Made by a program: the position numbers and the translations under genes. 48,182 nt of DNA from Hyphomicrobiales bacterium (lineage in GTDB: Bacteria > Pseudomonadota > Alphaproteobacteria > Rhizobiales > Xanthobacteraceae), in NCBI GenBank assembly GCA_018335895.1, contig JAGXQU010000083.1:1-48182 (forward strand), written 5' to 3'. Shown here piece after piece: positions 3,638 to 4,639 of this stretch. The notes beneath the pieces are model-generated. The model saw nothing but the letters and a program-made list of their open reading frames with translations, was not told the origin of the DNA and made no database searches. Position 1 is the stretch's first letter. Each line of letters begins with the position of its first letter.

Positions 3638-3829
3638 ATGAAACCCGATGACGACGACCGTCCCAAGAAGAAGATCGCGCACGAGATCGGCGCAGACCTG
3701 TCGCTGGTTTCGGTCGAGGAACTGCGCGAGCGGATCACGCTGCTGCAAGAAGAGATCGCGCGTCTGGAAGCCGATATCGGCCGCAAGCAGGCTTCGAAGT
3801 CGGCGGCCGACGCCGTCTTCAAGCGTTGA
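3638..3829 (+). CDS. DUF1192 family protein
   Basis: 63-residue acidic/basic protein beginning MKPDDDDRPKKK, followed by a conserved HEIGADLSLVSVEELRERI segment and a short coiled coil (about residues 30-55). This is the usual layout of the small DUF1192 proteins of Rhizobiales; their function is not known. Start set at ATG 3638, preceded by GGAGG (3629-3633); a longer in-frame opening to 3572 would overlap the divergent quinone-reductase promoter. It is transcribed divergently from that gene. The gene ends at 3829 and the next gene downstream on this strand is rcdA, but a terminator at 3957-3985 separates them. Confidence 0.85.
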   Translation: MKPDDDDRPKKKIAHEIGADLSLVSVEELRERITLLQEEIARLEADIGRKQASKSAADAVFKR

Positions 3830-3884
3830 AATTCATACGAATTTTACGAATTTACCTCTCATTAAGGTTTCGAGATCACTATCG

Positions 3885-3985
3885 GAAGTGTCCAGCTTCT
3901 GGACGTCGAGTGGCTCCTGTCCACTCTGTTTGACGCCTCCCTGTGAACAGACTTCAGAGCCGCTCCTTTGGGCGGCTCTTTTTTT
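3885..3985 (+). ncRNA. Candidate structured small RNA with CUCC loop motifs
   Basis: Non-coding stretch between the DUF1192 gene and rcdA that folds by eye into successive hairpins and ends in an intrinsic terminator. Hairpin 1: GTCCAG/CTGGAC (3890-3904). Hairpin 2: GAGTGG/CCACTC with loop CTCCTGT (3908-3926). Hairpin 3: TGTT/AACA plus an inner ACG/TGT, with loop CCTCCC (3927-3949). Hairpin 4: GAGCCGC/GCGGCTC and seven T (3957-3985), with TCCTTT in its loop. Loops carrying CUCC runs are the hallmark of alphaproteobacterial trans-acting sRNAs that pair with Shine-Dalgarno sequences. The 5' end is not visible (no convincing -35/-10), so the start is approximate. It could instead be the 3' UTR of the DUF1192 mRNA. 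Confidence 0.5.
3957..3985 (+). terminator. Rho-independent terminator
   Basis: Stem GAGCCGC/GCGGCTC with a loop of about eight bases, followed by seven consecutive T. It ends either the candidate small RNA at 3885-3985 or the DUF1192 transcript. Confidence 0.85.
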
Positions 3986-4117: not shown

Positions 4118-4639
4118 ATGTCCGACCCAGTCGAAAAACAGGATCGTCCGGTTCATCTCGCCGCGCGCATGGCGCAGGGCGAGCAGTTCGGCGTGCTCTT
4201 TCGCGAAGGCATGGCGCTTGTGGAAGCGACCGCCGCTTATCTCGACGGTCCCGGCCGCGCGGAAGCGAAGTCGCTCACGCGTCCTGCGGCGCTCGCTTAC
4301 GCGACCGAGTCCATGCGGTTGACGACGCGCCTCATGCAGATTGCGTCCTGGCTCCTGCTGCAGCGCGCGGTGAACGAGGGCGAGCTGTCCTTCGATCAGG
4401 CGAAGACGGAAAAAACCAAGGTAAAGCTCACGACCTGGGATCCGCCGCACGAGGAATCCATGGCGTCGCTGCCGCAGCGCCTGCGGGATCTGATCGATAC
4501 GTCGCGCAACATTCACGAACAGGTGCTGCGGCTCGACCAACTTGTCTACAATATGAAGGCGCCCGAGAAGATCGACGCTTCCAATCCGGTCGAAGCGCAG
4601 ATCGGGCTTCTGCGCGCGGCGTTCGATACCAAGCGGTAA
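4118..4639 (+). CDS. rcdA: DUF1465 protein, RcdA-type regulator of CtrA degradation
   Basis: 173-residue helical protein with the core of the DUF1465/RcdA family: FREGMALVEATAAYLDGPGR at about 35-54, then ATESMRLTTRLMQIASWLLL. In Caulobacter, RcdA is a ClpXP adaptor-hierarchy component that helps deliver the cell-cycle regulator CtrA and other substrates for degradation; this is family knowledge, not shown by the sequence. No membrane segment or signal peptide. The ATG follows a strong GC hairpin (4090-4110). The gene has its own terminator at 4644-4673, and a CtrA-like box occurs elsewhere in the window at 38670-38684. The family match is secure; identical function in this organism is likely but inferred. 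Confidence 0.85.
   Translation: MSDPVEKQDRPVHLAARMAQGEQFGVLFREGMALVEATAAYLDGPGRAEAKSLTRPAALAYATESMRLTTRLMQIASWLLLQRAVNEGELSFDQAKTEKTKVKLTTWDPPHEESMASLPQRLRDLIDTSRNIHEQVLRLDQLVYNMKAPEKIDASNPVEAQIGLLRAAFDTKR

Follow-up and report, generated by a model that had tools for sequence, protein, structure and literature searches.

A BjrC1505 small RNA gene upstream of rcdA with a conserved CtrA-type promoter motif in Hyphomicrobiales

CtrA, a cell-cycle regulator of Alphaproteobacteria, ranks among the most thoroughly studied bacterial regulators of this kind, and RcdA helps to degrade it. Worked-out small RNAs (sRNAs) under CtrA control are few and, as far as the available text of the literature searched goes, the studied case is CcnA of Caulobacter. 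Six noncoding RNAs with CtrA motifs have been listed for Caulobacter, where a full CtrA motif is reported to activate with its 5′ nucleotide at -39 and to repress with it at -14 (PMC4287350); the consensus given by ChIP-seq is TTAA-N7-TTAAC (PMC7200025). The sRNAs AbcR and NfeR1 are described as acting by pairing with mRNAs (PMC7143759). The RNA reported here belongs to BjrC1505 (Rfam RF02356), a family that the literature searched holds as a single table entry under its name, with no mention of its accession. BjrC1505 is said to originate from Madhugiri et al. 2012. Names of the BjrC series denote sRNAs of Bradyrhizobium japonicum USDA 110 (PMC7143759).

The window analysed here is a stretch of 48,182 nucleotides (contig JAGXQU010000083.1) from a 3.1-Mb draft genome of a Hyphomicrobiales bacterium (93% complete). 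An Rfam covariance scan of the window aligned positions 3845-3985 of the plus strand with the entire RF02356 model (1-140 of 140) at 104.7 bits (E = 2.5e-19; cut-off, 50), a score that marks the stretch as more than a chance fold and that is the only match to this family in the draft genome. Both the core GAGUGGcUCCUGUCCACUCUGUUUgACgCCUCCCuGU and the GAGCCGC-type terminator of BjrC1505 are present in the window RNA, as seen in the cmscan alignment and in relatives. Positions 3885-3985 are a genuine sRNA gene of an already-known family, so the preliminary description, which had suggested an undescribed member, was wrong on this point; its picture of a stand-alone alphaproteobacterial sRNA with its own terminator is well supported by the Rfam match, by RF02356 matches in 129 of the 149 genomes sampled from the same bacterial family (above the cut-off in 128) and by compensatory changes in the stems. 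The gene lies between a DUF1192 protein gene (3638-3829, plus strand; PF06698, 88.4 bits) and the protease adaptor gene rcdA (4118-4639, plus strand; PF07323, 187.2 bits; NF051867 RcdA, 206.6 bits, cut-off 170), which starts 132 nt beyond the end of the terminator. Ribosomal protein L31 and ABC transporter genes lie beyond these neighbours. Mechanically called open reading frames of 61-272 aa cross 3885-3985 on both strands; an absence of coding potential is nonetheless plausible because the RNA varies in length without keeping to multiples of three. Elsewhere in the window, the plus strand carries a 6S RNA (RF00013, 20190-20343; 53.3 bits, cut-off 46.4) and a serC leader (RF00517, 40669-40720; 73.1 bits, cut-off 35).

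The plus strand of 3885-3985 folds at -42.7 kcal/mol, compared with -28.4 ± 3.2 kcal/mol for 200 dinucleotide shuffles, none of which folded as well (z = -4.42). A good fold is obtained for the minus strand as well (z = -3.60, with 1 of 200 shuffles as good), but the terminator with its T-run, AGAGCCGCTCCTTTGGGCGGCTCT followed by TTTTTTT, lies on the plus strand with 10 pairs. Folding of 3889-3985 gave four plus-strand helices, in agreement with the run of hairpins ending in an intrinsic terminator that had been proposed from the letters: H1 at 3890-3904 (GUCCAG-CUU-CUGGAC), H2 at 3908-3926 (GAGUGG-CUCCUGU-CCACUC, with CUCCU in its loop), H3 at 3928-3952, which presents CCUCCC, and the terminator at 3956-3985, comprising a 10-bp stem (helix 3956-3979) and the T-run. 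At the level of the DNA, the C-rich motifs read CTCCT at 3914-3918, CCTCCC at 3936-3941 and TCCTTT in the terminator loop.

The preliminary description had tied its case to conservation of the stems in related genomes, and on making that comparison we found the stems kept, with compensatory changes. In the 65 sequences scored for the outer pair of H1, G-C occurs 41 times and A-U 20 times, and 63 sequences have a standard pair there, compared with 50.4 expected if the columns were independent; the TCC/GGA hairpin that constitutes H1 was detected in 66 of 75 non-redundant sequences. H2 is formed by GAGUGG/CCACUC in 154 of the 178 loci, the majority of which were selected by that core, and occurs in compensated variants, including GAUUGGA/UCCAAUC and, in locus L544, GAGCGG/CCGCUC. 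Two-sided changes affect five of the eight modelled terminator pairs. The long stem of H3 folds in the window and in five copies from the same genus but is shorter in two other copies that were folded, and its 3′ arm is not conserved among 76 relatives. These counts were anchored on the individual hairpins because RNAalifold recovered only the terminator from a mixed alignment (A1) that misplaces H1 and the divergent rows of H2; a covariance model built from 45 promoter-less sequences (R1) likewise contains terminator pairs only.

Across 75 relatives, CCUCCC has a mean predicted unpaired probability of 0.97, compared with 0.43 for the whole RNA, and in the window (3936-3941) its first C is unpaired at 0.41 and the remaining letters at 0.98 or above. 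The motif is exposed and invariant in the sets examined, whose loci were partly selected by the core. Positions 3929-3944 are invariant in 76 non-redundant relatives, partly owing to selection, since this set also demanded a near match to the core. The CUCCU loop is less constant, being absent from loci L534 and L537, and the terminator loop columns (3965-3970, TCCTTT) vary among the 76 relatives. As judged from these comparisons, the family at large combines H1 and H2 with the terminator and, ahead of it, an open stretch holding CCUCCC; of the three anti-Shine-Dalgarno motifs first described, CCUCCC is near-invariant, CUCCU frequent and TCCTTT incidental. An arrangement of four hairpins exposing three such motifs, as first described, therefore holds for the window and not for the family at large, where neither the TCCTTT loop nor the long H3 is conserved.

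Upstream of the RNA lies an arrangement resembling a promoter. A CtrA-type box, recognized by its motif, occupies 3851-3865 of the plus strand (TTTACCTCTCATTAA) and matches the consensus TTAA-N7-TTAA at seven of eight fixed letters; the single mismatch (TTTA) is a local change, given that five copies from the same genus (L496-L500) have all eight. It is followed on the same strand by a -10-like element, CACTAT, at 3877-3882, which in relatives reads TATnAC or CATTAT (the latter in L501, L507 and L514). Among 76 non-redundant relatives, the best conserved columns 5′ of H1 spell TT[A/T]AC-N6-TTAAG (3851-3866) and then the -10-like block at 3877-3882; the first half-site, TT.A, is invariant in 76 of 76, -10 columns 3878, 3879 and 3881 reach 0.82-0.87 (the window deviating at 3879), and conservation is weak from the -10 to H1. 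Judged by where the -10 lies and where H1 begins, transcription would start at about 3889/3890, which places the 5′ nucleotide of the box at -38/-39. The predicted transcript would accordingly span 3889-3985 on the plus strand, or about 97 nt (5′ end ± 2 nt), and Rfam draws the RNA at 3845-3985, with a 5′ end some 44 nt further upstream.

The first 40 or so positions of the RF02356 model, about a third of its length, look like promoter and not transcript. In roughly positions 1-43 of the model, 7 of the 14 pairs are non-standard in the window (14 positions flagged), which suggests that promoter sequence was drawn into the alignment, and the conserved columns in this part spell the box and the -10. 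Their placement between DUF1192 and the RNA argues for an independent transcript. What appears to be new here is this CtrA-type promoter together with the linkage to rcdA, the RNA itself being known; no report of CtrA control of BjrC1505 was found in the literature searched, as far as its available text extends.

The box is conserved together with the RNA across sampled loci, although these counts come from related genomes and are not independent. A search of named genomes with a 36-nt core yielded loci L061-L180, of which 113 of 120 had enough flanking sequence for scoring: 35 carry the box at 8/8, 77 at 7/8 and one at 6/8, so that 112 of 113 reach at least 7/8, compared with 6.6% of shuffles. 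Of 30 loci retrieved with R1 from a second family of the order, 28 were scored (the two without the CCUCCC core were left aside), with 24 at 8/8 and four at 7/8, compared with 2.3% of shuffles; for both sets the shuffles keep base composition only. One of these four, L540, has its box about 30 nt closer to the core than the others. A further 20 RF02356 hits gave 17 boxes at 8/8, two at 7/8 and one at a contig edge, but these were hand-chosen (five from the same genus, the rest mostly low-scoring) with a model that spans the box, and the set is not blind to it.

The second-family set and a more distant one were both obtained with the promoter-less R1, with the CCUCCC core then required by a regular expression. 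In the distant set, the box reaches at least 7/8 in only 15 of 25 candidate loci, which weighs against CtrA control; L235 has 6/8, L243 was read at the wrong site, and L230, L234 and L239 were unscored. The other five, L236 (G044), L240 (G013), L242 (G146), L246 (G141) and L247 (G164), belong to a different conserved sRNA-like element consisting of ACGUCUCCCAGACGUGAAGCCUCCCUGUU or close variants and a terminator, which occurs in several alphaproteobacterial genomes. This element has the end CCUCCCUGUU in common with BjrC1505; four of its five loci lack a CtrA box, and in the fifth the match lies inside the element.

CtrA itself is encoded in the genome (NF045991, 412.7 bits; cut-off, 350), as is a candidate GcrA (171 bits with Pfam; 155 bits against an NCBIfam cut-off of 280). 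The other genomic matches to TTWAC-N6-TTAAG, on contigs C25, C74/C179 and C183 (L181, L183 and L185-L187), lie beside fliX and flgI, on two contigs between priA and an XerC-like recombinase gene, and between PilZ and EamA genes, with one further site near a DctQ gene. The fliX/flgI, XerC-like/priA and PilZ/EamA neighbours are candidate CtrA targets by virtue of these motifs, and some of the genes beside the sites are presumably CtrA targets in other organisms.

Genome-wide, TTWAC-N6-TTAAG is not enriched (seven matches in six places, compared with seven for the reversed control). Such a lack of enrichment would suit a stand-alone sRNA under housekeeping control, with TTAA-N7-TTAA serving another factor or forming the -35 region of a sigma-70 promoter, as would a genome-wide start-site study of Bradyrhizobium, in whose available text the motifs discovered de novo are limited to RpoD- and RpoN-like ones (PMC4842269). 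We regard this as unlikely because the full palindrome is kept with its exact 7-nt spacing in two samples chosen without reference to the box, because the distance of the box from the predicted start is one at which CtrA is reported to activate (PMC4287350) and because a sigma-70 consensus scan of the window found no promoter adjoining the RNA.

No RF02356 match was found in 20 of the 149 same-family genomes, and matches occurred in 40 of 385 genomes across the class, 17 of them above the cut-off; Caulobacter, represented among control genomes, had none. Within the window's family, no RNA match was seen in genera g278 (two genomes), g290 (three), g295 (two) and g316 (six), and g283 gave one weak hit in five genomes, making these five genera candidate lineage losses. 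Scanning named genomes with the 36-nt core returned at least 120 stretches, with Bradyrhizobium, Afipia, Tardiphaga, Roseibium, Stappia, Breoghania, Bosea, Chelatococcus and Alsobacter among the matches listed. R1 gave matches in 69 of the 190 genomes sampled across the class and in 74 of the 119 from the second family, its weak hits including at least one other CCUCCC RNA. The second family is probably not that of S. meliloti and the agrobacteria, since its locus L518 is identical over the RNA to the named Chelatococcus copy L079.

The RNA gene usually lies a short way upstream of rcdA. RcdA was found in 145 of 153 RNA loci, in 144 of them downstream on the strand of the RNA, and both DUF1192 and RcdA are present in 100 of the 108 loci whose flanks were long enough, although in a few of these DUF1192 lies at a distance of over 1 kb or on the opposite strand. 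In one locus, on a Bradyrhizobium metagenome-assembled contig (L088), the RNA lies between DUF1192 and rcdA on the strand opposite to both, which reflects either a local inversion or an assembly error. Across the class, 39 genomes combine an R1 hit with RcdA; in 17 of them RcdA lies downstream on the same strand at no more than 3.6 kb, compared with 0.02 expected, and seven of the 17 (G126, G138, G027, G037, G165, G015 and G070) contributed no locus to R1 training. The other 22 have RcdA elsewhere and mostly weak R1 scores, four exceeding 45 bits (G168, G041, G080 and G187), and 30 R1-positive genomes had no RcdA match.

Given this linkage and the 132 nt that separate terminator and rcdA in the window, the RNA could be the 5′ leader of rcdA, with the CtrA promoter driving rcdA and the RNA arising as a by-product of attenuation; CtrA motifs or CtrA control have been reported upstream of rcdA in other species (PMC2877005, PMC3616915 and PMC4287350). 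Loci in which RNA and rcdA are separated make this quite unlikely. In G168 and G041 the RNA lies about 41 kb from rcdA and retains an 8/8 box (TTAATTGTAATTTAA), and in G001, a genome with no RcdA match, an 8/8 box likewise stands beside the RNA. Conversely, of 12 RcdA loci with no RNA nearby, only one (G116) has a box of at least 7/8 within 800 nt and 11 have none, a count made without a shuffle control. On these two observations, the box is most likely that of the RNA and not of rcdA.

For S. meliloti, the available text reports binding of CtrA at the rcdA promoter region with no response of rcdA mRNA to CtrA depletion (PMC4433202), which also speaks against a leader of rcdA. In agrobacteria, rcdA is described as having several start sites, with CtrA sites tending to be at a greater distance upstream than those of Caulobacter (PMC10469942). 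These two observations would be consistent with an RNA driven by CtrA ahead of rcdA, provided that the RNA is present there. No universal rule follows, because the text available for Hyphomonas describes rcdA as not regulated by CtrA (PMC7200025), and in Caulobacter rcdA is listed among CtrA-bound cell-cycle promoters (PMC4287350), yet no RF02356 match was found.

As for function, the most likely mode of action is a block to translation of several mRNAs, as described for AbcR and NfeR1 (PMC7143759), because CCUCCC copies the anti-Shine-Dalgarno sequence. Duplex energies of two loops, compared with shuffles, gave no excess complementarity on average at ctrA and gcrA starts (z about +0.4 to +1.0) in 80-nt start regions from 30 ctrA loci and from the 17 gcrA loci whose start was found among 30 fetched, sets that include RNA-less genomes (for example, G385, G390, G397 and G402). 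The ctrA start of the window genome pairs with the CCUCCC segment at -17.4 kcal/mol, compared with a mean of -13.3 kcal/mol.

Transporter binding proteins abound among genes whose Shine-Dalgarno sequence complements CCUCCCUGU exactly, and also among genes with the control motif. Transporters were rejected as targets on this ground: solute-binding proteins seemed strongly enriched among genes with a ACAGGGAGG Shine-Dalgarno, but they were numerous with the control MAMGGGAGG as well. The raw counts were 11 of 71 ACAGGGAGG genes compared with 4 of 54 control genes for TctC, 7 of 71 compared with 8 of 54 for Peripla_BP_6 and 5 of 71 compared with 2 of 54 for SBP_bac_8; they cover part of the listed places after removal of duplicates and of open reading frames below 90 aa, with RNA-less genomes in both sets. 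The transporter signal is thus not clearly above its control. Across 15 family genomes, genes with a GGGAGG Shine-Dalgarno are rich in periplasmic solute-binding proteins whichever of the two sets of three bases precedes it, and this abundance may by itself explain the transporter bias of anti-Shine-Dalgarno sRNAs in this class. That the RNA is instead a decoy, its CCUCCC binding a protein or competing with other anti-Shine-Dalgarno sRNAs, would accommodate both the very strong, partly selected conservation around the motif and the lack of a target signal in the ctrA/gcrA and transporter tests, but is very improbable, as the better described AbcR and NfeR1 are reported to pair with mRNAs (PMC7143759) and no protein partner emerged from the analysis.

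We consider it probable that the locus encodes a BjrC1505 RNA of about 97 nt, transcribed from its own CtrA-activated promoter, that blocks ribosome-binding sites in trans through CCUCCC. Phosphorylated CtrA would bind the TTAA-N7-TTAA box at 3851-3865, whose position at -38/-39 corresponds to the activating geometry known for CtrA in Caulobacter, and transcription from 3889 would stop at the intrinsic terminator at 3985. The exposed CCUCCC, aided by the CUCCU loop of H2, would then pair in trans with the Shine-Dalgarno regions of several mRNAs and lower translation of this target set. With such a promoter, the RNA would be expected when CtrA is active; we infer this control from the motifs alone.

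On balance we also lean towards BjrC1505 being an ancient, directly CtrA-activated cell-cycle sRNA that usually resides beside rcdA, in which case CtrA sites credited to rcdA in species that carry the RNA, whether motifs or ChIP peaks, may belong to the RNA as its promoter. If this is so, and if S. meliloti carries the RNA, it would explain why CtrA binds upstream of rcdA there with no effect on rcdA. A CtrA-controlled RNA in this position would place post-transcriptional control next to the machinery for CtrA degradation in many Hyphomicrobiales, including Bradyrhizobium, and would provide a testable regulator for a family on which the literature searched holds almost no functional work.

Several described sRNAs resemble the window RNA in part. 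CCUCCC-type anti-Shine-Dalgarno motifs are common to it and to MmgR/AbcR (RF00519, suhB) and NfeR1 (ar14), but RF00519 scored 32.5 bits, under its gathering score of 41, and ar14 gave no Rfam match up to E = 10. NfeR1 is described with the motif in all three loops (PMC7143759), whereas the H1 loop here is CUU and lacks it. EcpR1 of Sinorhizobium is likewise an alphaproteobacterial sRNA linked to the cell cycle; it is reported to lie beside rpmG with pleD-divK upstream, to bind through a GC-rich stem-loop and to be induced by stress (PMC4414408 and PMC12403871). Identity with EcpR1 was rejected on account of this pleD-divK/rpmG locus, compared with DUF1192/rcdA here, and its family was not among the Rfam matches of the window RNA up to E = 10. 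With CcnA of Caulobacter, the window RNA has in common a CtrA box in the promoter, here by motif only (PMC8959179). CcnA is described as 182 nt long, located inside the replication origin and acting on ctrA and gcrA (PMC8959179), whereas the RNA here is predicted at about 97 nt, lies between DUF1192 and rcdA and gave no such signal on average; locus and length argue against identity. Compared with BjrC1505 (RF02356), the window RNA has the same core and the same terminator, and the two do not differ as RNAs.
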